Made by a program: the position numbers and the translations under genes
Shown here: positions 7,799-64,000 of the stretch, piece by piece
How positions within the stretch are numbered: the first letter of the stretch is position 1
Layout: every line of letters begins with the position of its first letter
The notes under the pieces: generated by a model
The model's database searches: none
The model's input: only the letters and a program-made list of their open reading frames with translations
Told to the model about the DNA's origin: nothing
Source of the DNA: Chthoniobacteraceae bacterium
GTDB taxonomy: Bacteria; Verrucomicrobiota; Verrucomicrobiia; Chthoniobacterales; Chthoniobacteraceae
NCBI GenBank assembly: GCA_947449735.1
Contig: CANFTB010000021.1
Span: 1 to 64,000, forward strand
DNA length: 64,000 nucleotides
Direction of reading: 5' to 3'

Positions 7799-7872
7799 GA
7801 GACTGCGCTGGATCAACAAGAGAAGGTCGTTTATTCCTCCTTACTCAACCCCAACCTCATTTGTTCCCACCT

Positions 7873-9186
7873 ATGTCAGACACACAAAAACCGGAGCTCT
7901 CGCGCCGGACTCTCATCAAGACTGCCGGCGTTCTTGGCGCAGGCATGGTCGCGTTCCCCTATGTGATGCGCGGACAGGCCAATGCGGAGAACTCCCTCAT
8001 CCGCGTCGGCCTCATCGGCTGCGGCGGCCGCGGTTCAGGCGCGGCGGACCAGACGCTCAATGTCCCCGGGTCCAACGTGAAGTTGGTCGCCGTGGCGGAC
8101 GCGTTCTCCAACCGTGTGGAGAACACTGTGAAGGGCCTCAAGGCAAAGCATGGCGACAAGGTCGACGTGACTCCCGAGCGTATGTACGTCGGCTTGGACG
8201 GCTACATGAAGATTCTCCAGAGCCCTGATGTGGACATGGTCATCCTCGCCACGCCTCCCGGCTTCCGTCCTTTCCACTTCGCGGCTGCTGTGGCCTCGGG
8301 CAAGCACGTGTTCATGGAAAAACCGGTGTGCGTCGACGCCGCCGGCGCACGCAAGGTGTTGGAAGCCGCCAAGGAAGCCGACAAAAAGGGACTCAAGGTA
8401 GTGGTCGGCCTGCAGCGCCACTACGACGACAAGTACCGCGAAACCTATAAGCGCGTGAAAGACGGAGCCATCGGCGACATCCTCCAGGCCAACGTCTACT
8501 GGAACGGCGCGGGCATCTGGTGGCGCAAGCGTGAGGAAGGCATGACGGACACGATGGCCCAAGTACACAACTGGTACCATTACGCCTACCTTTCCGGTGA
8601 CCACATTTGCGAACAGCACGTGCACAATCTTGATGTTGCCAACTGGTTCCTCGGTGAGACTCCGGTTAGCGCGTTTGGCGTCGGCGGCCGCCGCGTCATC
8701 ACCCCCGACCAGCCCAGCGAAATCTTCGACCACTTTGCGGTCAATCTGATCTACCCGAGCGGCGCCTCCGTCGCCAGCCAGTGCCGCCAGTACCCCGGCC
8801 TCGGACGCGTCAGTGAGGACTTCCGCGGCACCAAGGGCGTTTGCGAAATCGGGAAGATCAGCGACTACAAAGGCAACATCCTTTGGAAGTACGAAGGCAA
8901 GTCCGAGAACCCCTACCAGGTCGAGCATAACGAATTGCACGGGTTCATCCGTACCAACACCGCCCACAACGACGCCTACTACGGCGCGACCAGCAGCTTC
9001 ACCGCTTCCCTGGCCCGTTACGCGGCTTACACCGCGAAGGAACTCAAGTGGGATGCAACGCTCGCGCTCAACGACTCCCTCATGCCCGAGAAACTCGATC
9101 CGGCAGGCGCGCCGCCGGTCAAGCCCAACGCTGATGGAAGTCTGACCCTGCCCAATTCCCGCGATTACAAGATCGCCGGAGCCTAG
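7873..9186 (+). CDS. Tat-exported Gfo/Idh/MocA-family oxidoreductase
   Basis: A 437-residue protein from the ATG at 7873; a TTG four codons upstream is a less likely start. It opens with a twin-arginine leader (SRRTLIKTAGVLGAG), followed by a Rossmann nucleotide-binding fold (IRVGLIGCGGRGSGA), the MEKP catalytic-lysine motif, and the Gfo/Idh/MocA C-terminal domain with an EQHVHNLDVANW segment. Tat export implies folding with NAD(P) bound in the cytoplasm. Such exported members are abundant in Verrucomicrobia and Planctomycetes and oxidise or epimerise sugars or glycosides. The substrate is unknown. It is monocistronic, flanked by the pnp terminator and its own terminator at 9240. Confidence 0.92.
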   Translation: MSDTQKPELSRRTLIKTAGVLGAGMVAFPYVMRGQANAENSLIRVGLIGCGGRGSGAADQTLNVPGSNVKLVAVADAFSNRVENTVKGLKAKHGDKVDVTPERMYVGLDGYMKILQSPDVDMVILATPPGFRPFHFAAAVASGKHVFMEKPVCVDAAGARKVLEAAKEADKKGLKVVVGLQRHYDDKYRETYKRVKDGAIGDILQANVYWNGAGIWWRKREEGMTDTMAQVHNWYHYAYLSGDHICEQHVHNLDVANWFLGETPVSAFGVGGRRVITPDQPSEIFDHFAVNLIYPSGASVASQCRQYPGLGRVSEDFRGTKGVCEIGKISDYKGNILWKYEGKSENPYQVEHNELHGFIRTNTAHNDAYYGATSSFTASLARYAAYTAKELKWDATLALNDSLMPEKLDPAGAPPVKPNADGSLTLPNSRDYKIAGA

Positions 9187-24363: not shown

Positions 24364-25275
24364 ATGCCAATAAAACTGCGGACCTTCTTTGCAGCGGCCC
24401 TTTTGCTGGTCACGTCGAATTTCTCTCAAGCCGCTGATCCCGTCCGCGTATTGGTTTGGGACGAGCAGCAGCCGCAACAAAAGCAGGCGTACGGCGACAA
24501 GTTTCTGGGCGAGACCATCGCGGCTCATCTCGGGCAAAAAGACGGGCTTTTGGTGAAGAGCGCGCGTTTAGACTCGGAGCAGCAGGGGCTTGATGAAGAA
24601 ATACTCGATGCAACCGACGTGCTGGTTTTCTGGTGCCACCGGCGGGTGAAGGAGCAGGACGATGCGCGTATGGAGGCTGTTGTAAAACGTGTGATGGAAG
24701 GCAGGCTCTCTTTAATCGCACTGCATTCTGCGCACTGGGCGAAGCCGTTTGTCCGGCTCATGCAGGAGCGTGCGAAGGCCGATGCTCTCACCATGGTTCC
24801 AGAGGCGGAGCGCGGATCGGCAAGTTGGGAGTTCGTAAACGACCAGCCTTATTACAAAGGAGTCAAGGATGGTGCCCCTCTCACCCCGTCCCTTGAACGC
24901 AATGGCGGGGTGTGGCGTCTGACGCTGCCCCAGTGCGTCTTCCCGGCCTACCGCGCTGATGGTGCGCCGGGCCACATGACCACGCTCCTGCCCGGGCACC
25001 CCATCGCGAGAGGATTGCCTGCGCACTGGGACATTCCGCAAACCGAAATGTACGGCGAGCCCTTCCATGTGCCCGCGCCGGATGAGGTGGTGTTTGAGGA
25101 GAAATGGGACAAGGGTGAGCAGTTCCGCAGCGGGTGCGTGTGGAAAGTCGGCAAGGGCCGCGTGTTTTATTTCCGCCCGGGCCACGAGACCTACCCCATC
25201 TTTACACAGGCAGAGCCCCTGCTTGTTGTGGAGAATGCCGTCCGCTGGATGGCTGCGGCGCAGGGTGCCCGGTAA
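24364..25275 (+). CDS. secreted ThuA-domain protein
   Basis: A 303-residue protein with a Sec signal peptide (cleavage after SQAA near residue 23) and a ThuA fold (class I glutamine-amidotransferase-like): VRVLVWDEQQPQQKQAYG, TDVLVFWCHRR, SLIALHSAHWAKPF, HPIARGLP, VWKVGKGRVFYFRPGHETYP. ThuA proteins are linked to trehalose and 3-keto-disaccharide use in rhizobia, and PVC bacteria carry many exported copies. Its exact reaction is unknown. No sugar gene adjoins it directly, but the TIM-barrel/dehydrogenase pair is 2.2 kb away. Confidence 0.88.
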   Translation: MPIKLRTFFAAALLLVTSNFSQAADPVRVLVWDEQQPQQKQAYGDKFLGETIAAHLGQKDGLLVKSARLDSEQQGLDEEILDATDVLVFWCHRRVKEQDDARMEAVVKRVMEGRLSLIALHSAHWAKPFVRLMQERAKADALTMVPEAERGSASWEFVNDQPYYKGVKDGAPLTPSLERNGGVWRLTLPQCVFPAYRADGAPGHMTTLLPGHPIARGLPAHWDIPQTEMYGEPFHVPAPDEVVFEEKWDKGEQFRSGCVWKVGKGRVFYFRPGHETYPIFTQAEPLLVVENAVRWMAAAQGAR

Positions 25276-28595: not shown

Positions 28596-29741
28596 ATGTC
28601 GAAGAAAAATCTTAACGTCGGAATCGTGGGCTATGGATTCATGGGACGCACCCATGCCAACGCCTTTCGCAAGGTGGTCAACTTTTTCGACCTCCCTTAT
28701 ACTCCTGTTCTGAAGGCAGCATGCGGACGTGATGAAGAGAAGCTGAAGGCTTATTGCGACCGCTGGGGGTGGGAGAGCTCCGAGACCGACTGGCGGAAAT
28801 TGATCGAGCGGAAGGATATCGACATCATCGATATCTGCACTCCAAACGATTCGCACGCTGAAATTGCGATCGCCGCCGCGCGTGCTGGAAAGATGGTGAT
28901 GTGTGAGAAACCCCTCTCGATGGACGGCCCGCAGGGGGAGGAAATGGTCCGCGAAATCGAGAAGGCGGGAGTTGCAAATATGGTTTGGTACAACTATCGC
29001 CGTGTTCCCGCTGTGACCTTTGCCAAACAGCTCATTGATGAGGGCCGACTGGGCCGGATTTTCCACTACAGGGCAAAGTTCCTCCAGGACTGGACGATCA
29101 GCGCTGAGCTTCCACAGGGTGGAGCGGGGCTGTGGCGCTTGGATGCGGCCGCCGCCGGATCCGGAGTGACGGGCGACTTGCTGGCGCACTGCATTGACAC
29201 GGCCTTGTGGCTGAATGGCAACATGGATTCCGTGAGCGCGATGACTGAGACGTTCATCAAGCAGCGCACGCACAGCCTCACCGGGCAGGTGCAGGAAGTG
29301 AAGATCGACGACGCGTGCGCTTTCCTTGCCCGCTTTGGGAACGGTTCGCTGGCGACCTTTGAGTCAACGCGTTATGCTCGCGGGCACAAGGCATTGTACA
29401 CCCTCGAGATCAATGGCGAAAACGCCTCGATCGCGTGGGATCTGCATGACCTGCACCGGTTGCAGTATTTCGACCACCGCGATCGCGGCAATCTTCGGGG
29501 GTGGCGTTCGATCCATGTTACCGATGGAGATCATCCCTACATGAGCAAGTGGTGGGTGCCCGGCCTGCAGATCGGCTACGAGCACACCTTTGTGCATCAG
29601 GTGGCTGACTTCATTGAAGGAGTTGGATCCGGTCAATTCGCCTCACCTACGTTCCGCGATGCGCTTGAGACCCAGTACGTGTGCGATGCCGTGCTGGATT
29701 CCGCTAAGACCGGACAGTGGCGTGATGTGAAGCACGCCTAG
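28596..29741 (+). CDS. cytoplasmic Gfo/Idh/MocA-family dehydrogenase
   Basis: A 381-residue protein without a leader: Rossmann motif [17 protein letters not shown] at residues 8-24, catalytic MCEKPLS, and the Gfo C-terminal domain with [14 protein letters not shown]. It is expected to use NAD(P)+ to oxidise a cyclitol or sugar, likely the partner step of the TIM-barrel protein just upstream. This differs from the Tat-exported homologue at 7873. Followed by a strong bidirectional terminator. Confidence 0.9.
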
Positions 29742-40435: not shown

Positions 40436-42280
40436 CTACTTTCGCGCAACCCTGAAACCGACCGCGTCGTCTATCTCTTCCGGAAGCATCCGGCCCCGTT
40501 TTGAGGAGCGGCAATCCCATGCGCGGCTCTTCCATGACCCGCCGCGAATCGTCCGCATTCCGGGGGCTTCCGGAATGGCAGGACTGTCCTCGGGATAGTC
40601 AGGGTAAGCCTTAAAAGCGTCCCAGCACCATTGCCAGACATTGCCTGTCATGTTGTAGAGGCCGTTGTTGTAATACGTTCGGACTGGGGCCGTACCTTCC
40701 TGGAAAATGGGGTGTCCCACGGAAAAGGTCTGGCGGGTGGCGACATTTTCAACTTCGTCTATGTAAACAGCCTGGCGGTGACTGATGTGTTTTCCGCAGG
40801 GATACCTGTGCTGGGGATTATTCACCTTTGCAGCCCTTTCCCATTCTGGCTCCGTGGGTAGGCGGTATCCCGTCGCCTCCCAGTTGAGCATTTTGTCACC
40901 GACCTTGAGCTGTCCCCGCCGGTAAATTGCACTCGGGTTTCGTGAGTCGCTGATGTAATAGAAGGGAGTAAGCCCTTCCATTTCGCTCCGAGCGTTGCAC
41001 CACTTTAGCGCATCGTACCAGTTGATTTGAGTAACCGGGTGGTCGTCGCGTTTTGCCGCTCCGGGATTTGCAAAATCGTAGCCGTTTTTTTCGGCCCAAG
41101 TTTTAACGGCCTTCCACTCGCGAAAACTGACGTCGGTCCTGCTCAGTTGGAATGCAGGCAATTTCACCGTGTGTACCGGATATTCGTCCGGGGCGCCTTC
41201 GTTTGCGATAGGGCGTGGCACATAAGCGGGCCTTTTCTCGTAATCGTCTTCTGTGGCTGCGGTCTTATCAGTGTAAGTGTCCCCCATTTTGAATTCGCCC
41301 TCCGGGATGGTAATGAAGGGCGAATCGAGCGTGGCGGCCAGCCTGAGGCCTCCCACTGGGTTGCCTGGATTGATGCGCTCCCGCTGGAACACGAAAGGAG
41401 GAGGGCCTTGTTTCGGCGAACGGCCACGCAGCATGCGCTCGGGGCTTCCTCCATCGCCGACCGGACCGATGGGATTGATTTTCCCGTAAATGGAATAGGC
41501 GGAAAATTTATCCCAGCACCATGCCCCGGATTCGGTCACCAAGTCCGACAAGCCGAACGCGTTCTTTGTGGGGGGGGCTTTTTCCGGAATCATGTCGCCC
41601 CAGGGATGGGGCTTGCGGCCAAGTCCTCCCCTGAGCGCCTTTTCCCATTCAGCTTCGGTGGGCAGGCGGTATCCGTTTTTGGTGGTTTCCCAGACAACGC
41701 CATCGGACATTTTCTTTGCGTTGACCAACGGTTTAAGGGCGCCGCCCGGTGCCTTCTGGTAGTAGCAGGGAGTCAGTCCGTGAAGTTCGCTCTTGGCGTT
41801 GCACCATACCATCACGTCGAACCACGAAAGGTTTTCCATCGGTTTGGCGAGCTTCGCCAGCCCGTCGAGGCTGTCCATGCCGTCCTGCGGGTCGGGGTTG
41901 AGCTTCCAGTTTCTGTAGGTGTATCCGCCTGACGCCGTCTGTCGTGCGACCAAGTCCCACTCCCATTGCGTCACGTGTGTTTCGCCAATCAGGTATTGAT
42001 CGAGCGTCACGGGCTGCTCTGGGGTGGCATCCTTCAGCGGGCCGTCCTTGCGGTGGTCGCCCATCAGAAAGGGACCCGAGGGAATGAGAAGACCGTTCCA
42101 CTCTAGTGTCTGCTGCTGCTCCTTTTTCTTCGCATCAATCTTTTGTTGAGCGCTCTCCTTTTTTCCAAAAAAGGGAAAGAAAGCACCGATGCCCATGCCC
42201 GAAGGCTGGGCGGCGTATGCGTTTTCGGAAACTCTGCAAAGCAAAATCAACGCAATGGCTGTGATGATTTCTCGGTTCAT
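40436..42280 (-). CDS. tandem SUMF1/FGE-sulfatase-like protein
   Basis: A 614-residue protein with a signal peptide and two consecutive formylglycine-generating-enzyme-like (SUMF1) domains at about residues 60-330 and 335-610. Both contain the fold's marks: LLIPSGPFLMGD and TIPEGEFKMGD near each start, VTQWEWDLV and LSWFDVMVWCNA in the first, and ALKWCNARSEMEGLTPFYY and GYRLPTEPEWERA in the second. The paired catalytic cysteines of true formylglycine-generating enzymes are not seen in the second domain (WDCRSSKRG has one), so it is probably not a sulfatase activator. It is more likely a surface protein that uses the C-type-lectin-like fold for binding. Confidence 0.8.
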   Translation of the reverse strand: MNREIITAIALILLCRVSENAYAAQPSGMGIGAFFPFFGKKESAQQKIDAKKKEQQQTLEWNGLLIPSGPFLMGDHRKDGPLKDATPEQPVTLDQYLIGETHVTQWEWDLVARQTASGGYTYRNWKLNPDPQDGMDSLDGLAKLAKPMENLSWFDVMVWCNAKSELHGLTPCYYQKAPGGALKPLVNAKKMSDGVVWETTKNGYRLPTEAEWEKALRGGLGRKPHPWGDMIPEKAPPTKNAFGLSDLVTESGAWCWDKFSAYSIYGKINPIGPVGDGGSPERMLRGRSPKQGPPPFVFQRERINPGNPVGGLRLAATLDSPFITIPEGEFKMGDTYTDKTAATEDDYEKRPAYVPRPIANEGAPDEYPVHTVKLPAFQLSRTDVSFREWKAVKTWAEKNGYDFANPGAAKRDDHPVTQINWYDALKWCNARSEMEGLTPFYYISDSRNPSAIYRRGQLKVGDKMLNWEATGYRLPTEPEWERAAKVNNPQHRYPCGKHISHRQAVYIDEVENVATRQTFSVGHPIFQEGTAPVRTYYNNGLYNMTGNVWQWCWDAFKAYPDYPEDSPAIPEAPGMRTIRGGSWKSRAWDCRSSKRGRMLPEEIDDAVGFRVARK

Positions 42281-54387: not shown

Positions 54388-57171
54388 CTAGTCTATAAAC
54401 GCAAGTTCGTTGGTGAGGAGCAGGGCCTGGCTGAGTGAAATCCAGGGTTTCTCTTTTTGATCCGTGAAGGTTCCCGCGAGGGTGAGCGAGGCTTCCAGTT
54501 CCTGTGCCGAGGGATCCCGCTGCAGGATTTGCTGGAAGAGGGCCTTGATTCTCTCGGGCCCCGGCGCGGCCGCCGCGACCTTGGGGAGTTTCACCACGGA
54601 CTCCGAGAGGTGTTTGAGGAAGTTGTTGTTCATCAGGAAGAGCGCCTGCTGCGGGACGCTGGTTTCAAAGCGCTGGCCCGTGCTGATGTCGGGGTTTGCG
54701 AAGTCGAAGATGCGCAGCATGGAGGGCAGGTCCTGCCTGTCGATGTAGCCGTAGACGCTGCGCCTGCCGGTGAAAGGTTCCTTGGTGAGTTCGACCGCCC
54801 TTCCTCCCCGAGACTCGTCAAGGCGGCCCGATTGAACCAGAAGCGTGTCTCGAAGGGACTCGAAGTCGAGCCTGCGGCGGCGCATCGAATGGACGAGGTC
54901 GTTATTTGGGTCAGCTGTGAGCGCGTCGGGGCGGGCGGCGCTGGACTGGCGGTAGGCGTTGGAGAGGACCAGTTCGCGGACGATCGTTTTGGTAGACCAG
55001 CCGCCATCCATGAATTTGGAGGAGAGGAAATCCAGAACGCCCGGGATGGCGGGAGCTGGGGTGCGCACGCCAAAGTCGTTCGGGGTCTCAACCAGCCCTT
55101 TTCCAAAAAGGTGCAGCCAGATGCGGTTGACCGCGACGCGGGCTGTGAGCGGGTTGGAGGGGGAGGCGATGGCCTGCGCCATTTCAAGGCGGCCGCTGCC
55201 CTGGGTGAAGGGCTTCCGCTCTGGGCTCGAGAGGACGCTCAGGAATTGCCGGGGCACTTTGGGGCCGCGGTTTGCGGGGTTTCCCCGGACGAAAACCACG
55301 GGCTGGACGGGCTGCGGCTTGTCGAAAATAGCCATGGCGCGGGCCGGCGCACTCGGGTCCGTAGCGTCGAGGACGTCGAGCTGGTCCTGGACCTTGGTTC
55401 TGGCCTCAAAAACCTTTCTGGCATGGGTTTTTTCCACCTCCGCACGGCTCAAGTGGCACGGGCCGCCCGGTTGCAGGAATTTGGTCCGCAGGGTTTCCTG
55501 AATGGGGTCGGGTGCGGGAGAATTGTCCTCCGGCGGACGGCTCGAGAGCGCCGTGTGCGCGGCTGTGAACACGGTGCCGTAGATCTCCGCCACTTCCTTC
55601 AGCGATTTGAGGGGGCGCTCTGTGAGCGCTGTGAGCAGCGCGGAGTTCCAACCGGCGGGAGGGGACGTCTTCCACTGTCCCGTCAATGCTGCTGCAGCCT
55701 TTTCAAAATCACTCGGATTTAGGGAGGCGAAAGCGTGCCAAGGGGCTAAAACGGGGTCCTTGTCGGCATCCTTGAGGGCAATCGTCCATCGCCCCAAAGA
55801 CAAACCGAGGAGGTTGCGTTCGCCCGCCATGGTGTCGAGCGCCTTGCTGTCGGCATTCGGGGGGACATCACGGGTTGTCGCCAAGTAGACGGGAAGTTTT
55901 TTGAGCAGCTCTGCGTTGGCCTTCTTGGCTTCCTCATCGGGAGCGGCCTCGCGCTTGGCAATAAGTTCGTTCCGTTTCTCGAGATATTTTTCGTACTCGG
56001 GAGTCTGCTTGGGTTGGCCGAGAACGGGGCGCTCCTTGGGTTCCTCTACACTCATGAAAACGCCGTGCAGCGAGTAATAGTCTGCCGTGGGAATGGGATC
56101 GTATTTGTGGTCGTGGCAGCGTGCGCAGGACACCGTGAGCCCGAGCATGCCCCGGGAAACGACGTCGATCCTGTCGTCGATGATGTCGTTGACGCTGTTT
56201 TGGAAACAGCGGCCGACGGTCAGGTATCCGAGGGCGGCGAGAGCGTCCTGGGATTTGGGCTCGGGCAGAAGGTCGGCAGCGAGCTGCTCCAGAAGGAACT
56301 GGTTGAAGGGCTTGTCGGAGTTGAAGGCGTCGATGACGTAGTCCCGGTAGCTGTAAGAGAAGTGGAAGCGCCGGTCGGCGTTGATGGGCGCGGGGAGGCC
56401 CTTGGTGTCGGAGTAGCGGGCGACGTCCAGCCAGAAGCGGCCCCAGCGTTCGCCGAAGCGGGGCGAGGCCAGGAGACGCTCGACATTTTTGGGATAGGCG
56501 TCGGGGGAAGGGTCGGCAAGGAAGGTCGAAAGCTCCTGTTCGCTCTGGGGAAGCCCGGTGAGGTCGTAGGTCAACCGCTTAAGAAGCTCCCGTTTTCCGG
56601 CTTCCGCGGAGGGCTTGATTTGTTTGGCTTCCAGGGCTGCCATTACAAAACGGTCTGTGTCGGTGCGGGGCCAGTTGGCGTCCTGCACCGCCGGAGGTGC
56701 GGGCTTGGTAACCGGCTGGAAGGCCCAGTGTTTTTTGGCAGCCTCGGGGTCGGGGCCGGCGATTCTTCCTTCCCGGGGATCGTAGGCTCCGCCGCGCACC
56801 CATTCCTGAAGAATTGCCACCTGCTCGGGAGACAGGCGTTTGTTGTCGGGCGGCATCTTCAGGTCGGGGTCGGAATAGGTGACCGCTTTGAACAGAAGGC
56901 TTTTTTCCGGCGCGCCGGCAACGAGGGCGGGGCCGGTTTCGCCGCCCTTGAGGACAGCGGCCGCGTTGTCGAGGGCGAGGCCGCCCTTGGTTTTGCCCTT
57001 GGCGGCGCTGTGGCATTCGATGCAGCGCTCCTCGAGGAGGGGGCGCACGGATTTCTCAAAGAACTCGGCGCGCACGGGGTCCGGGGCGGGTGCCACCGCG
57101 GCCAAGGCGCTGGCGATGGGAAACAGGACGGCGGCGCCGGCCAGGGTGTGTAGGCGGAGGAAGGTCTTCAT
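54388..57171 (-). CDS. PSD1-type protein (cytochrome-c-like, DUF1549, DUF1553)
   Basis: A 927-residue exported protein. Signal peptide, then a planctomycete cytochrome-c-type domain with a heme motif CIECH near residue 50, a DUF1549 domain (residues ~170-380) and a DUF1553 domain (~650-880: LTARVAVNRIWLHLFGKGLVETPNDFG, DFESLRDTLL). These proteins are the abundant PVC partners of DUF1501, assumed to act on extracellular glycans or sulfated substrates. The ATG overlaps the DUF1501 stop in an ATGA, so the two are coupled. Confidence 0.93.
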   Translation of the reverse strand: MKTFLRLHTLAGAAVLFPIASALAAVAPAPDPVRAEFFEKSVRPLLEERCIECHSAAKGKTKGGLALDNAAAVLKGGETGPALVAGAPEKSLLFKAVTYSDPDLKMPPDNKRLSPEQVAILQEWVRGGAYDPREGRIAGPDPEAAKKHWAFQPVTKPAPPAVQDANWPRTDTDRFVMAALEAKQIKPSAEAGKRELLKRLTYDLTGLPQSEQELSTFLADPSPDAYPKNVERLLASPRFGERWGRFWLDVARYSDTKGLPAPINADRRFHFSYSYRDYVIDAFNSDKPFNQFLLEQLAADLLPEPKSQDALAALGYLTVGRCFQNSVNDIIDDRIDVVSRGMLGLTVSCARCHDHKYDPIPTADYYSLHGVFMSVEEPKERPVLGQPKQTPEYEKYLEKRNELIAKREAAPDEEAKKANAELLKKLPVYLATTRDVPPNADSKALDTMAGERNLLGLSLGRWTIALKDADKDPVLAPWHAFASLNPSDFEKAAAALTGQWKTSPPAGWNSALLTALTERPLKSLKEVAEIYGTVFTAAHTALSSRPPEDNSPAPDPIQETLRTKFLQPGGPCHLSRAEVEKTHARKVFEARTKVQDQLDVLDATDPSAPARAMAIFDKPQPVQPVVFVRGNPANRGPKVPRQFLSVLSSPERKPFTQGSGRLEMAQAIASPSNPLTARVAVNRIWLHLFGKGLVETPNDFGVRTPAPAIPGVLDFLSSKFMDGGWSTKTIVRELVLSNAYRQSSAARPDALTADPNNDLVHSMRRRRLDFESLRDTLLVQSGRLDESRGGRAVELTKEPFTGRRSVYGYIDRQDLPSMLRIFDFANPDISTGQRFETSVPQQALFLMNNNFLKHLSESVVKLPKVAAAAPGPERIKALFQQILQRDPSAQELEASLTLAGTFTDQKEKPWISLSQALLLTNELAFID

Positions 57172-58613
57172 GCCACGACGTCTTTGACGACCTTTCCGTG
57201 CACGTCGGTCAGGCGGAAATCCCGCCCGGAGTGGCGGAAGGTAAGTTTTTCATGATCCATTCCGAGGAGGTGCAGGATGGTGGCGTGCAGGTCGTGGACG
57301 TGGACGGGGTTTTCGGCTGCTTTGAAGCCGAACTCGTCGGTGGAGCCGTAGACGGTTCCGGCGCGCACGCCGCCCCCTGCCATCCAGGCGGAGAACCCCC
57401 AGTGGTTGTGGTCGCGGCCGTTGATCTTACCCTGGTTGGAACCGGGGGTTGGGAGTTCGACGGTAGGGGTGCGGCCGAACTCGCCGGACCAGACGACGAG
57501 GGTGTCGTCCAGGAGTCCGCGCTGTTTGAGATCGATGAGCAGCGCGGCGGTGCCTTGGTCGCTTTCGCGCGCCAGTTTGCGGTGCTGGATTTCGAGGTCG
57601 TCGTGGCTGTCCCAGGGTTGGCCGGGGCCGTGCCAGAGCTGGACGAAGCGGACGCCCCGTTCCGCGAGCCGGCGGGCGATGAGGCACTGGCGGCCGTAGG
57701 TCGTGTTGCCGTACAGATCGAGGATGTGCTGGGGTTCCTTGGAAAGGTCGAAGGCGTCAGACGCGTCCATTTGCATCCGGTAGGCGAGCTCGAACGACTG
57801 GATTCTGGCGTCGATTTGCGGGTCCTCTCCCCGGGTCTGGCGGTGCAGACGGTTCAGCGTCGAGAGGAGGTCGAGTTGGGCCCGCTGCTCGGTTTGGTTC
57901 CAGGAACGGTTCCGGATGTTTTCGATGAGTTTTTCGACGTCCGTGTGCTTGGTGTCGATGTAGGTGCCTTGGAGGGAGCCGGGCAGGAAGGCGGACTGCC
58001 AGTTGGGGGCGCCGCCGGTGGGATAGCCGCCGGGGCAGAGGGTGACGAACCCGGGCAGGTTCTGGTTTTCTGAGCCCAGGCCGTAGTTGATCCAGGAACC
58101 GAGGCTGGGCCTGGGCAGGCGGGCTTCGCCGCAGTTCATGAGCATCAGGGAGGGCTCATGGTTGGGCACGTTGGCCTGCATCGAACGGATGACAACCATG
58201 TCGTCCACGCACTTAGCGACATTTGGAAACAGATCGCTGACCTCGGTGCCGCACCTGCCGTGTTTTGCGAACTGGAAGGGTGAGCCGAAGGCCGCTCCCG
58301 TGGGGCGTTCCGTTTTGAGGTGGCCAGCGCTCAGTGGTTTGCCGTGGAGGCGAGTGAGCTCCGGTTTGGGGTCGAAGGTATCGACGTGCGAGGGGCCGCC
58401 GTTGGCGAAAAGATGGATGACGCGCTTTGCCTTGCCCGGGTATTGCGAGGGGTGCGAGGCGAGGGGGGAGGCGTTGTTGAGAGAGGCGCCGGCTGATTCA
58501 GAAAGACTGGCCAGTCCCATCAGGCCGAATCCCATGCCGCAACGCTCGAGAAAGGAGCGCCTGGAGAGGGCGGATTCCGGAAAAAATGGGTCGCTGTTGT
58601 CGAGACTGGCCAT
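57168..58613 (-). CDS. DUF1501 protein coupled to PSD1 gene
   Basis: 481 residues from the ATG at 58613. Twin-arginine leader SRRSFLERCGMGFGLMG, then the DUF1501 fold: VIHLFANGGPSHVDTFDPKPELTRLHG, NCGEARLPRPSLGSWINYGLGSE, VQLWHGPGQPWDSHDDLEIQH, GRTPTVELP and GRDHNHWGFSAWMAGGGVRAGTVYG. It is likely exported in folded form with metal. Here DUF1501 comes first and PSD1 second, the reverse of the usual order, joined by a 4-bp overlap. Confidence 0.92.
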   Translation of the reverse strand: MASLDNSDPFFPESALSRRSFLERCGMGFGLMGLASLSESAGASLNNASPLASHPSQYPGKAKRVIHLFANGGPSHVDTFDPKPELTRLHGKPLSAGHLKTERPTGAAFGSPFQFAKHGRCGTEVSDLFPNVAKCVDDMVVIRSMQANVPNHEPSLMLMNCGEARLPRPSLGSWINYGLGSENQNLPGFVTLCPGGYPTGGAPNWQSAFLPGSLQGTYIDTKHTDVEKLIENIRNRSWNQTEQRAQLDLLSTLNRLHRQTRGEDPQIDARIQSFELAYRMQMDASDAFDLSKEPQHILDLYGNTTYGRQCLIARRLAERGVRFVQLWHGPGQPWDSHDDLEIQHRKLARESDQGTAALLIDLKQRGLLDDTLVVWSGEFGRTPTVELPTPGSNQGKINGRDHNHWGFSAWMAGGGVRAGTVYGSTDEFGFKAAENPVHVHDLHATILHLLGMDHEKLTFRHSGRDFRLTDVHGKVVKDVVA

Positions 58614-58826
58614 GGCGGGGTGGGTGGTCGAAAAATGCGGTCCGGTATTCAACCCTGGGACGGGGAGAATCCCGAGCACAATCTTCAGTCAAGGAGACCC
58701 TGGAAGGACCCGGAACTTTGGAGGAAAATTGGACTGGCTGCCCCGGGATGAGCCATCCCAGCCCAGTTGAAGGGGGAACGGCTCTTCCTTTCATTTCAAA
58801 GGAGGTCTCCTCCGCTGTATGCGCCA

Positions 58827-60135: not shown

Positions 60136-60747
60136 TCAGGGCGAGGTCGTGATTCTCAAACCGCGGAATTCCAGCGCTCCGGCCTTTTCCCCCTCAGGAC
60201 CGCCTGACTCGCCGCCGAGACCGAATGAGAGCTTCTGCTCTGCTATGCAAGGGTCGGTTGCGGTGATGGTTGTATTGTCGATGGTTGCCGTGAGCGTGGA
60301 GCCCTTGAACTCGAGCCTGACGCGGTGCCACTCATCGATCGTGAGCGGGTTGTCTTGTTTGAGCAGTCCGACGGACTCGCCTTTCTTCGGGTGCGCCAGG
60401 ACCCGGAGGTGGTCCTTTCCCATGACGAGGTGCACGATGTGACCGCGCTCCTGTGCACCGTTGAAGATGATGCCGGCAAACGTCGCTTTGCCTATCAGGC
60501 GAAACTCGCACTCAACGACGGCGTCGGTCATCGTGAGCTTTTGCACCTTCACCGGGCCGTGGCGGCGTTCACCGGATTCAAAGCCGCGCAACACGCCGTC
60601 CTTGGCCGTCCAAGTTCCGAGGCCCCAGTGCCAAGCGGCCGAAAGGGGTTGGTCGAACTTTTCCTCAAGGACAACGGTGGGTTCAGCGCTGAATAAGACG
60701 CTTGTACTGGCAATAAGTGCTAGGATGAGAGTGGAGACGTTTTTCAT
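60136..60747 (-). CDS. secreted DUF1080/LamG-like protein
   Basis: A 203-residue protein with a signal peptide (residues ~1-20) and a single beta-sandwich domain (VVLEEKFDQPLSAAWHWGLGTW, VVECEFRLIGKATFAGIIFNGA, WHRVRLEFKGSTLTATIDNTTI, LEFRGLRI). The fold is that of DUF1080/LamG glycan-binding or 3-keto-glycoside-hydrolase proteins. It is 11 bp after the stop of the large lipoprotein gene, so it is the third gene of one operon. Confidence 0.8.
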   Translation of the reverse strand: MKNVSTLILALIASTSVLFSAEPTVVLEEKFDQPLSAAWHWGLGTWTAKDGVLRGFESGERRHGPVKVQKLTMTDAVVECEFRLIGKATFAGIIFNGAQERGHIVHLVMGKDHLRVLAHPKKGESVGLLKQDNPLTIDEWHRVRLEFKGSTLTATIDNTTITATDPCIAEQKLSFGLGGESGGPEGEKAGALEFRGLRITTSP

Positions 60748-60758
60748 GGCGGTACGTG

Positions 60759-63239
60759 TTATGGCTGAGCGACGCTGAATCGGATGACTTGGTAGTGGGT
60801 GAAAGGTGGGATGCGCACGGTTACCAAGCCTTCGACTATGGAGAATTGGTCTGGGGCAAGACGTTGCTGCAGCGCGTTGTTCTGAGCGGTCTCATCGTAG
60901 CTGATGGATTCGACGCAAAGACCTGCTGGGGGTTTGATTCCAGGAATCCTCAGTGTGATGGTGAAATCGTCTCGACTGACGGGGGTGAGATGGTCGGTGG
61001 CCAGATCATGGTGGTAGTTGACTAGGTCGACGGTGAGCTCGCGAGGGGACGCCTTACTCGTGTTGGCATAGATGCCGAGATGTTCAGGGGCGTTGGCTGT
61101 AGTGAGCACAGCTTCGTGGTGGCTCGCTGAAGCGAGAACATCTCGGAGCCGCGCAGACTTGCTGGGGTCCTCATGGAATTCGAGGCCGGGCTTGTCTTTG
61201 ACGACGGTAATCTGAGCGGGATACCGTGTGCAAAGCGGCGTGATAAGGTCTTCGGTGCGCGGGGTCAGAAGCATGTCCGGCCCGTTGAATGTGCCGGATT
61301 CGCCGGTGATGAGGAGCTTGCCACCCTGCTTTAAGTAATCTTCGAGAACAGCTCGGTGCTCGTTGGTAACGACAAGTACCGAAGGCAGAATCACCAGCTT
61401 GAAGCTGACGAGATCCTTGAGGGTGACATTGTCGAAAGGAACGACATCCCACTGCGGGAAGCTTCGTTCAGATGCGAGAAACTGCGACCAGCCGAGAAAC
61501 TCGGATGCGTGGCGTTTTGTCACTGCCTGGTTCCATGCCCATGGCGGTTGGGCGGCGATTTGACTCCAGGAGCTGGAGGCAAGGCCGATGTCGGCAAGGT
61601 AATCACGCTTTGAGATGACGGGCGAAATGTGGTTGATGAAGGTGTGGAGATTTCCCGCGGAATGGATCGATCCGGGCGAGTAGCCGCCGTCAAAAGTCAG
61701 TGAAAAGGCTGGGATGCCACGGTTCGCGACAAGGTCGAAGTAGATCACTTTGTGCAGCGTCTCAAACTGGCGCTTGGTAAACCCCGCGCCGCTCCAGCCG
61801 CTGTATTGCGGCTCCACATAAGGGTCCACGATGGCGTGGCCCGTGACGCCGATCTTGGCCGCCATCCGCGGGCCGATACCCAGTCGGGCCTGTGGATAGT
61901 AGCCAAGAGGCTTTACAAAAGCGGTGAAGGTCTTGAATACAGGCCACTCAAAGTTGGCCATGTCGACGCAATCGCGCTGAAGGAAAAGAGCGCTGAGCAT
62001 GGGAATCACGTTTGCCACCATCGGAATGTCACGGCCCAGCGAGCGCGCTGCTTGCTTATTAAGCCTGTACACCTCCTTCATGCTCGCGAGTTTTTCTTCA
62101 ACGGCTGCGATTTGGAACGCCCGCCAAACCTTGTTGGAAAGCCATCGGCTGTCTGCCGCGGAGCGCCAGAGAGGCTGGTCGCCTGGGCCTTGGTACTCAG
62201 AACGCCACGGCGGATTCAACAGATAACCCAGCACGTCAAAGGCCTCGATCTGGGATTTCTCAAACCCGAACTCGAGGCAGTCTGCCTCGCTAAGCCGGCG
62301 TCTTGCAAAATCGCGGAACGCGGCGGTGTGAATATCGGCCTTTGCGTCCATCGCAGTGGGGGAACGCAGGTCCCAGTCGTCGTAGTGAATCATGTCCGGC
62401 GCGAGTGTCTCCATGACGCGCCGGCCCTTTGCCGCCTGATAAGACGCGAACTGCGCGTCGTAGAGCATGGAACGCGAGCTCGAGATGAGCCACTGGCCGT
62501 CAGACCGTTGGGTGGTGATCTCGCGGAGCCCAAGTGCGCCCGCTATTTCCGCGGGTATTTCAGCGTACTGATTGGCGCCTTCATCGGAGGCGCGTCCCGT
62601 ACCAATGAGGGCCGAACCTGAGCGTGTGCGCCAAAAGTCCGCCTCGTTGTTGATGGGGCTTCCGTCGAGCGGATGGGTGAAGGCAGGCACGCCAAGGTCA
62701 AATGCCGTCGGAAGTGTTTTGTCCAGTGGTGTCTTCAGTGCGGGAGACTGCATGAACTCCCAATCACTGAACCAGATGGTGCGACCGCCCTGCTTAATGA
62801 GGCTCTCAAAATAGCTGCGCCTTTGAGGATCCTTGATGGCCGCAAGGAGCGGGGCGGTGAACAACAGCCGCCCTTCGGTGGAAATCCGGGCGAGGACCTT
62901 TTTTGCGCTGTTGCCTTCGATGTAAACGATCCGTTTGGTGGCGGGGTAAAGCGCAAGGGAGCGCTCGTATCCGCCCATCCACGTCGAATCGCGCGCAAGA
63001 TCGGCCTGCCACGGCCCATGGTAGCCGACTGCCCCCACGCTGGCAGCCGTGGTATGGAGGGTGTCGAGATTGGGAACCACGAAGTTCCCGTGGCCGTCGA
63101 ACGAGATCGAGAACATCCGGTGCCACCAGGGATCACCCTCCGCGCTTGTTTTTTCACGCGCCTGAGATTCGGCAGCGTGCAGGCAGCCGGAAATCAAAAG
63201 CAGGGATCCTGCAATGAGTGGGAGGAGCGGCCGTCGCAT
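60759..63239 (-). CDS. large lipoprotein with glycoside-hydrolase-like architecture
   Basis: An 826-residue protein from the ATG at 63239. It has a signal peptide with lipobox LISGC (Cys19), so it is probably a lipoprotein. Residues ~40-560 carry a TIM-barrel-like outline with candidate acidic residues, for example PDMIHYDDWD and LTFDGGYS. A later segment resembles the beta-galactosidase trimerisation (GATase-like) domain (VILPSVLVVTNEHRAVLEDYLKQGGKLLITGE). No characterised GH family is confidently matched. It is the second gene of an operon between a TIM-barrel isomerase and a DUF1080-like protein. Likely acts on glycans at the cell surface. Confidence 0.75.
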   Translation of the reverse strand: MRRPLLPLIAGSLLLISGCLHAAESQAREKTSAEGDPWWHRMFSISFDGHGNFVVPNLDTLHTTAASVGAVGYHGPWQADLARDSTWMGGYERSLALYPATKRIVYIEGNSAKKVLARISTEGRLLFTAPLLAAIKDPQRRSYFESLIKQGGRTIWFSDWEFMQSPALKTPLDKTLPTAFDLGVPAFTHPLDGSPINNEADFWRTRSGSALIGTGRASDEGANQYAEIPAEIAGALGLREITTQRSDGQWLISSSRSMLYDAQFASYQAAKGRRVMETLAPDMIHYDDWDLRSPTAMDAKADIHTAAFRDFARRRLSEADCLEFGFEKSQIEAFDVLGYLLNPPWRSEYQGPGDQPLWRSAADSRWLSNKVWRAFQIAAVEEKLASMKEVYRLNKQAARSLGRDIPMVANVIPMLSALFLQRDCVDMANFEWPVFKTFTAFVKPLGYYPQARLGIGPRMAAKIGVTGHAIVDPYVEPQYSGWSGAGFTKRQFETLHKVIYFDLVANRGIPAFSLTFDGGYSPGSIHSAGNLHTFINHISPVISKRDYLADIGLASSSWSQIAAQPPWAWNQAVTKRHASEFLGWSQFLASERSFPQWDVVPFDNVTLKDLVSFKLVILPSVLVVTNEHRAVLEDYLKQGGKLLITGESGTFNGPDMLLTPRTEDLITPLCTRYPAQITVVKDKPGLEFHEDPSKSARLRDVLASASHHEAVLTTANAPEHLGIYANTSKASPRELTVDLVNYHHDLATDHLTPVSRDDFTITLRIPGIKPPAGLCVESISYDETAQNNALQQRLAPDQFSIVEGLVTVRIPPFTHYQVIRFSVAQP

Positions 63240-63296
63240 AGAAAATTGGGGCAATTTCTAATTGCCAGAGCCTGCTGAACTGCGAGTTGCTTCGAG

Positions 63297-64000
63297 TTAC
63301 AACCGGATCTTCACCGCCTTGAGGCTTTCGGGAAGCTGCCTGGCGGCTTCGGGACTTTCATCCTCGATGATGAAGTGCTTCACGCCTTTTGCCTTTGCTG
63401 CGGCGATCACCCCTGGAATGTCTACGCGGCCCGCCGCCAGACGCACCATTGCAGATCGGGCGGACTTTGGATTGCGCACATCGGGGGTGGCGTCTTTGGC
63501 AAGGTCTTTGAGATGAAGCGAGCAAAGGCGCGGGCCATTTTGCTCGATCACCACCGTGGGTCTAGCTCCGCCCCAAGCCACCCAGAAAACGTCGAGCTGA
63601 AACGATACCAACTCCGGCTCCGTGGCACCGACCAGTATGTCATAAAAGGTCTCCTCAGGCTTGTCGGTGGAACCTGCCGCCATGAAATCCAGAGCGTGGT
63701 TGTGGTAAGCAAACTTGAGCCCGGCAGCCTTGAGCGCGAAGCCATAGCGGTTGAAGGCAGCAGCGCCTTTCAGCACTTGTTCGCGGTCCAGTTCGCCTTT
63801 GTGGGGCAAAATCGGACACACGACCTGCGCTGCGCCAAGGGCCTTGGCGTCAGCGATCACCTTTTCCATGCCTTTCTCCAGATGCTCAGGCCTCACATGG
63901 TGGCTGGAGCAGGTCATGCCCCGTGCCACCAGCAACGCGCGCAATTCCTCCGCAGGCAACTTCGTAAAGACGCTCGTTTCGATGTCTGTGAAGCCTTGCG
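63297..64000 (-). CDS. sugar-phosphate isomerase/epimerase-type TIM barrel (5' partial)
   Basis: The frame runs from a TAA at 63297 beyond the window edge; the in-window part reads GFTDIETSVFTKLPAEELRALL onward. Metal-site regions FAYHNHALDF, SFQLDVFWVAWGG, CSLHLKDL and HFIIEDES match the YcjR-like/xylose-isomerase-like isomerase family, which includes enzymes acting on 3-keto sugars. The N terminus, and whether it carries a leader, lie outside the window. It is the first visible gene of the minus-strand operon with the lipoprotein and the DUF1080-like protein. Confidence 0.85.
   Translation of the reverse strand, partial: QGFTDIETSVFTKLPAEELRALLVARGMTCSSHHVRPEHLEKGMEKVIADAKALGAAQVVCPILPHKGELDREQVLKGAAAFNRYGFALKAAGLKFAYHNHALDFMAAGSTDKPEETFYDILVGATEPELVSFQLDVFWVAWGGARPTVVIEQNGPRLCSLHLKDLAKDATPDVRNPKSARSAMVRLAAGRVDIPGVIAAAKAKGVKHFIIEDESPEAARQLPESLKAVKIRL

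Follow-up and report, generated by a model that had tools for sequence, protein, structure and literature searches.

The chemistry in which a sugar is oxidized at C3 and its glycosidic bond is then broken by elimination has already been described in Agrobacterium, gut bacteria and Bacteroides. The Bacteroides BT2156–2159-type pathway combines triosephosphate isomerase (TIM)-barrel chains resembling sugar isomerases with a DUF1080-type partner, and reportedly relies on Gfo/Idh/MocA oxidoreductases. In the GlycDH-AtOGE-AtHYD-Gfo operon of A. tumefaciens, the isomerase-like TIM barrel AtOGE, a 3-keto-O-glycoside β-eliminase, is found beside a flavin-dependent sugar oxidoreductase (PMC10628242). 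Lactose utilization in Caulobacter joins the periplasmic dehydrogenase LacABC to a DUF1080-like protein (PMC9007349). Here we compare these systems with a gene run in a freshwater Chthoniobacteraceae bacterium (assembly GCA_947449735.1, labeled G000; L-numbers denote loci in other genomes). The window, that is, the whole 64,000-nt stretch analyzed, covers positions 1–64,000 of contig CANFTB010000021.1 (C21), which extends to 79,425; the remaining 15 kb was examined as well. At the right-hand end of the window, three minus-strand genes encode an AtOGE-like TIM barrel, a large protein with the outline of glycoside hydrolase (GH) family 42, here called GH42L, and a LamG/DUF1080-like protein.

These three genes close a run of seven co-directional genes: PSCyt1/PSCyt2/PSD1, DUF1501, FAD_oxidored, GH5-type hydrolase, TIM barrel, GH42L and LamG. 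We read the run as the downstream part of an operon whose secreted products break down glycans by an oxidation-elimination route, and give this reading about an even chance of being right. The likeness to A. tumefaciens lies in the isomerase-like barrel, with the same metal-binding and catalytic residues, beside a flavin oxidoreductase. Unlike the A. tumefaciens operon, the run carries an export signal on its TIM barrel, has a flavoprotein of the FAD_oxidored family and no adjacent Gfo gene, and adds two glycosidases and the LamG protein. It differs from the Bacteroides pathway in its flavoprotein and cytochrome-type neighbors, and from the Caulobacter system in lacking GMC genes and possessing an eliminase-type TIM barrel.

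The TIM barrel and its candidate oxidant

The TIM barrel is a predicted secreted enzyme of the 3-keto-glycoside β-eliminase type. It occupies 63,297–64,000 (minus strand) in the window, and its full coding sequence runs on to 64,154, so that the N-terminal 51 residues lie outside; on the contig the protein is complete (285 residues, with a signal-peptide-like N-terminus). It scored 44 bits against AP_endonuc_2, and its closest solved chain was 8BVK, AtOGE itself (profile E 5.7e-26, profile positions 35–282), all other chains matching at 1e-19 or weaker. Among these were 8TCD, 8TCS and 8TCT (3e-19 to 3e-18), which we take to be chains of the Bacteroides BT2156–2159-type pathway reported by Nasseri et al. 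in 2024.

AtOGE binds its metal through His132, Asp163, His189 and, weakly, Glu233, and its catalytic base is His134; the H134A mutant is inactive and H189A retains less than 0.1% of activity (PMC10628242). All five residues, together with Glu39, are identical in the TIM barrel and in 16 of 16 aligned sequences. Asn152 stands between His151 (AtOGE His132, metal ligand) and His153 (His134, catalytic base) in an H-N-H motif whose codons, checked individually, are at 63,696–63,704; Asp188 (Asp163, metal ligand) is encoded at 63,591–63,593, His214 (His189, metal ligand) at 63,513–63,515 and Glu264 (Glu233, weak metal ligand) at 63,363–63,365, all on the minus strand. Glu59 corresponds to AtOGE Glu39, and His86 to His66, which all but one of the aligned relatives retain; AtOGE Glu161 is replaced by glutamine in the window protein. 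As a control, we looked for the H-N-H motif in the 16 AP_endonuc_2 matches of the genome, six of them alignable, and saw it in only three.

The initial annotation had called this protein a keto-sugar-type isomerase. It does belong to the keto-sugar lyase branch of AP_endonuc_2, but the AtOGE match, the conserved active-site residues and the rarity of the H-N-H motif in the genome make an isomerase the less likely assignment; judged from sequence, a lyase or hydratase acting on a keto-sugar is more likely. We also tried the myo-inosose-2 dehydratase IolE, which was ruled out: the protein reached 39.8 bits against an equivalog cut-off of 290 (NCBIfam TIGR04379).

The remaining 15 kb of contig adds more same-strand genes upstream of the TIM barrel, which bears out the earlier expectation of an operon start outside the window. 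They encode a GH5-type hydrolase with intact catalytic motifs NE and GEF (61 nt away), a FAD_oxidored flavoprotein (71 nt; contig positions 65,649–67,400), a DUF1501 protein (180 nt) and, about 650 nt further upstream, a PSCyt1/PSCyt2/PSD1 protein carrying a CxxCH heme motif. The products of all seven genes in the run have an N-terminus resembling an export signal, as judged by eye rather than by a predictor. Promoter and terminator scans of the run found sites no more numerous than in shuffled sequence and were uninformative on co-transcription.

The initial annotation had proposed looking for a Gfo/Idh/MocA gene on the extended contig. The genome holds 28 matches to this family, but none falls within the run, and the nearest one upstream, at C21 position 75,856, is on the plus strand about 11 kb away. 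The window genes that the initial annotation had drawn into its route do exist (ThuA, 24,364–25,275; Gfo, 28,596–29,741 and 7,861–9,186), but they lie tens of kilobases from the run. The likely oxidant in the run is instead the flavoprotein, which matched FAD_oxidored (PF12831) at 297.9 bits against a Pfam gathering score of 27; that it oxidizes C3 we infer. A literature search found no link between PF12831 or PSCyt proteins and 3-keto chemistry.

Two other genomes give the strongest evidence for placing the TIM barrel after a flavin-dependent sugar oxidation. In L006 (6919–10282), the orthologous TIM barrel is the third gene in a run behind a GMC oxidoreductase and a Gluconate_2-dh3 subunit. 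In L072 (5755–9465), from another genome of the class, a TIM-barrel relative with 36% identity stands ahead of this same pair of genes, which share 63% and 43% identity with their L006 counterparts. The two loci are distinct lineages that share the pairing of TIM barrel, GMC and Gluconate_2-dh3, the point at which they resemble the Caulobacter system, whose LacABC we take to be built from a GMC and a Gluconate_2-dh3 subunit. Complexes of this type also include other sugar dehydrogenases. Lactose 3-dehydrogenase LacABC is one of their number (PMC9007349).

GH42L and the LamG protein

GH42L, a large secreted protein with a GH42 shape, is encoded at 60,759–63,239 (minus strand; 826 residues from the ATG, with a possible alternative TTG start at 63,254). 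No family in a Pfam scan covered its catalytic domain; the GH42 catalytic domain (PF02449) did not match, and the trimerization domain Glyco_hydro_42M (PF08532) narrowly missed its cut-off (25.6 against 25.8 bits). A sequence search against the Protein Data Bank likewise returned the trimerization-type domain only, and no significant match to the catalytic domain.

We therefore turn to its predicted structure. The AlphaFold model of GH42L was of moderate quality (pLDDT 64, pTM 0.50). Foldseek placed 6tvk first (9.5e-13), followed by GH42 enzymes; 6tvk is a GH151 α-L-fucosidase. In VIA-align the closest structure was 9m0b, with Z 17.3 (505 residues aligned, rmsd 6.4), the next rows scoring 13.3 and 12.1, the latter for 6tvk. 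The entry 9m0b is Cm-AGA, the GH96 α-agarase of Catenovulum maritimum, in which mutation has proven a catalytic pair, Asp994 and Glu1129, 135 residues apart (PMC11311870). GH42L has a comparable pair 144 residues apart: the candidate catalytic residues Asp287, in an HYDDWD motif after the predicted fourth strand (codon 62,379–62,381, minus strand), and Glu431, in an NFEW motif after the sixth (codon 61,947–61,949, minus strand), are invariant in 12 of 12 homologs, down to 29% identity. Identity to 9m0b and 6tvk is 11–15%, and neither gives a significant sequence match in the catalytic domain.

Because the two residues are invariant and the fold is nearest to GH96, a match at the level of the whole fold, the modeling suggests that GH42L is an α-glycosidase of an unassigned family. 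We rejected a GH42 β-galactosidase: the trimerization domain alone matches, and distant relatives do not keep Glu476, placed on the predicted seventh strand, although they do keep Asp287 and Glu431. The initial annotation had described a large lipoprotein with a GH-like outline and no recognized family. A glycosidase without a Pfam catalytic family remains probable, but a conserved surface lipoprotein was rejected as well, the lipobox (LISGC) occurring in the window copy and being absent from orthologs.

The LamG protein (60,136–60,747, minus strand; 203 residues) is a secreted β-sandwich, predicted to be a glycan-binding partner or, less surely, a 3-keto-glycoside hydrolase. It fell short of the Pfam DUF1080 gathering score (PF06439; 25.1 against 26.8 bits) and just passed the cut-off for Laminin_G_2 (24.4 against 22.9); 12 of 13 aligned members matched the DUF1080 model at E up to 0.1. 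Its model was good (pLDDT 89.7) and showed a jelly-roll matching CBM66 (Z 18.5), lectins and GH16 enzymes (16–18) and the DUF1080 protein 4jqt (16.8); the modeled fold thus does not decide between a DUF1080-type and a binding role. A close subfamily was found in six other genomes of 288. One member, in L038 (6367–8388), forms the C-terminal domain of a sulfatase, and others lie beside a sulfatase in L033 and after three sulfatases in L034. We consider a binding role no less likely than hydrolysis, since the fold is like that of CBM66 and lectins, the DUF1080 cut-off is missed, and relatives adjoin or are fused to sulfatases.

Conservation, sulfatases and substrate

The three adjacent genes, 57 and 11 nt apart, lie on the minus strand as first described and are conserved in other Verrucomicrobiota. 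Orthologs occur at 57–85% protein identity in many other metagenome-assembled genomes (MAGs), and a scan of bacterial genomes recovered 15 loci with a GH42L relative, mostly in Chthoniobacteraceae-like or other Verrucomicrobia MAGs. GH42L identity was 70–76% in this group, 57–58% in marine Lentisphaerae and Verrucomicrobia MAGs, and about 30% in distant relatives. Across the three window genes, nonsynonymous divergence (dN 0.10–0.34) was well below synonymous divergence (dS 0.8–1.9); dN was several-fold below dS for GH42L, LamG, TIM barrel and flavoprotein, and dS was saturated for the GH5-type gene. Orthologs, low dN and conserved neighborhoods together argue that the three reading frames are not chance frames.

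The TIM barrel directly precedes GH42L in the window genome, L003, L004/L005, L008, L016 and L017, and LamG directly follows GH42L in the window genome, L007, L008 and L009/L010. The last 60 nt of L017 are present in L007, so the two form one locus. A flavoprotein ortholog stands alongside GH42L in L011 (79% identity) and L009 (78–87%, with its frame broken in that assembly), and L009 also has an ortholog of the GH5-type gene (80%). L003, L008 and L016 share the same DUF1501 ortholog (90–95% identity) upstream of the TIM barrel. These recurrent neighborhoods reflect synteny kept within a set of related loci and do not count as independent events.

Several loci depart from this pattern. In L016 (4541–5742), GH42L is present as two short pieces, its middle missing, behind an intact PSD1-DUF1501-TIM run. 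In L017 (1300–4755), a DUF7133-GSDH-HEAT-cytochrome c gene takes the place, just before the TIM gene, of the DUF1501/PSD1 pair of other loci. In marine relatives, as at L012 (47–7843), the neighbor of GH42L encodes a glycyl radical enzyme resembling pyruvate formate-lyase, and genes for a LacI-type regulator and an α-L-rhamnosidase are close by.

Sulfatases flank GH42L relatives in L006, L011, L039 and L040, and the operon in the window genome is itself without a sulfatase gene. These neighbors and the GH96/GH151-like fold of GH42L suggest that the substrate is a sulfated or otherwise complex glycan with α linkages. In L014 (7653–8100), the GH42L frame opens with a sulfatase N-terminus (ERPNIILILADDVGYGDTSCYA) and part of a sulfatase C-terminus; it looks as though a sulfatase with an internal deletion had been fused before GH42L. 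A distant relative in L039 (10059–13715) ends in a trehalase/GH63-like domain (PF01204, E 4.6e-73) and stands among several sulfatases. Elsewhere in the window, a formylglycine-generating enzyme-like (FGE-sulfatase) gene lies at 40,436–42,280; the genome holds 28 sulfatase matches.

Alternative routes and significance

In the oxidation-elimination route, the GH5-type enzyme and GH42L, predicted to be α-specific and to use Asp287 and Glu431, would trim a complex glycan, probably a sulfated one, to which the LamG protein would bind as a partner. In the periplasm, the flavoprotein would oxidize a glycosyl residue at C3, and its electrons may pass to the PSCyt1 heme protein. In the metal-dependent TIM barrel, His153 would take the C2 proton and the C1 substituent would be expelled, yielding a 2-hydroxy-3-keto-glycal and a free aglycone or shorter chain. 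We are least sure of C3 oxidation by the FAD_oxidored flavoprotein and of the identity of the substrate.

A number of observations weigh against this route. The functions of the run's proteins are read from sequence and models, and the GH42L model is weakest around Glu431. The solved relatives of the flavoprotein share no more with it than the stretch binding flavin adenine dinucleotide, and none is functionally informative. GH42L occurs without an adjacent TIM barrel in L011/L015 and L012–L014, and the TIM gene of L006 lies on the other strand. With DUF1501 loci numbering about 58 in the genome, the position of the cytochrome pair beside the run may be due to chance. Finally, the metal site is common to many AP_endonuc_2 enzymes, hydratases and dehydratases among them, and at this level of comparison elimination and hydration are not separated.

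This last point leads to a rather doubtful alternative, in which the TIM barrel, AtHYD- or IolE-like, hydrates or dehydrates a keto-sugar or 3-keto-glycal and cleavage falls to the glycosidases. The metal/histidine motif shared across the superfamily, the weak IolE match and the second isomerase-like protein of A. tumefaciens, a proposed hydratase, speak for it; yet that match is far under its cut-off, the nearest solved chain is an eliminase, and a second AP_endonuc_2-like gene able to share the work is present only in L008. We consider unlikely an ordinary hydrolytic locus, in which the GH5-type enzyme and GH42L cut a sulfated glycan bound by LamG while the TIM barrel and flavoprotein, unrelated to cleavage, isomerize or oxidize the released monomers. 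Both glycosidases do keep plausible catalytic pairs, their relatives are surrounded by sulfatases, and marine GH42L loci have an α-L-rhamnosidase but no TIM barrel nearby, whereas the conservation of the barrel beside GH42L and sugar dehydrogenases, and its eliminase-type active site, are at odds with so detached a role.

The route first proposed for this locus, in which a Gfo/Idh/MocA enzyme oxidizes C3 and the DUF1080-like protein hydrolyzes the 3-keto-glycoside, now appears very improbable. It has precedent, as the DUF1080 proteins BT2157 and CCNA_01705 are tied to 3-keto-disaccharide cleavage (PMC9007349), and Gfo/Idh/MocA genes are plentiful in the genome. The run has none, however, and the LamG protein lies under the DUF1080 cut-off, is structurally as close to CBM66 and lectins, and has relatives that look like sulfatase accessories, one of them sulfatase-fused. 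The likely cleaving enzyme, on the aligned active-site residues, is the TIM barrel. Oxidation at C3 followed by cleavage is thus retained as chemistry at the level of the class, given the conserved AtOGE ligands and base and the oxidoreductase upstream, with the steps assigned to different enzymes.

A survey of freshwater Verrucomicrobia found PSCyt/PSD genes to be numerous, often near sulfatases and without known function, and suggested a role for PSCyt genes in carbohydrate degradation (PMC5615132). The pair upstream in our run is of the PSCyt/PSD1-DUF1501 kind described in Verrucomicrobia and Planctomycetes. Here it stands directly before an eliminase-type sugar operon, suggesting a specific redox role, although DUF1501 adjacency alone is weak evidence. 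Another pair of PSD1-type and DUF1501 genes is found at 54,388–58,679 of the window, past the downstream end of the operon. A broader and quite speculative proposal, which we hold to be improbable, is that the PSCyt1/PSCyt2/PSD1-DUF1501 pairs abundant in Verrucomicrobia and Planctomycetes genomes take up the electrons when glycans are oxidized at C3 in the periplasm, that the FAD_oxidored protein of this run represents a new glycoside 3-dehydrogenase class and supplies an AtOGE-type eliminase, and that sulfated glycans would be dismantled by respiratory, elimination-based means.

What is new here is the assembly, which appears to be undescribed, together with the export signals, the flavoprotein family and the glycosidase family without a Pfam name. 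Glycan cleavage by elimination has been recognized beside hydrolysis only recently. A conserved freshwater operon joining an exported eliminase-type enzyme to a flavoprotein from a different family, to a cytochrome-type pair and to an unassigned glycosidase family would broaden the known range of this chemistry, and it offers a concrete, testable role for the PSCyt/PSD proteins.

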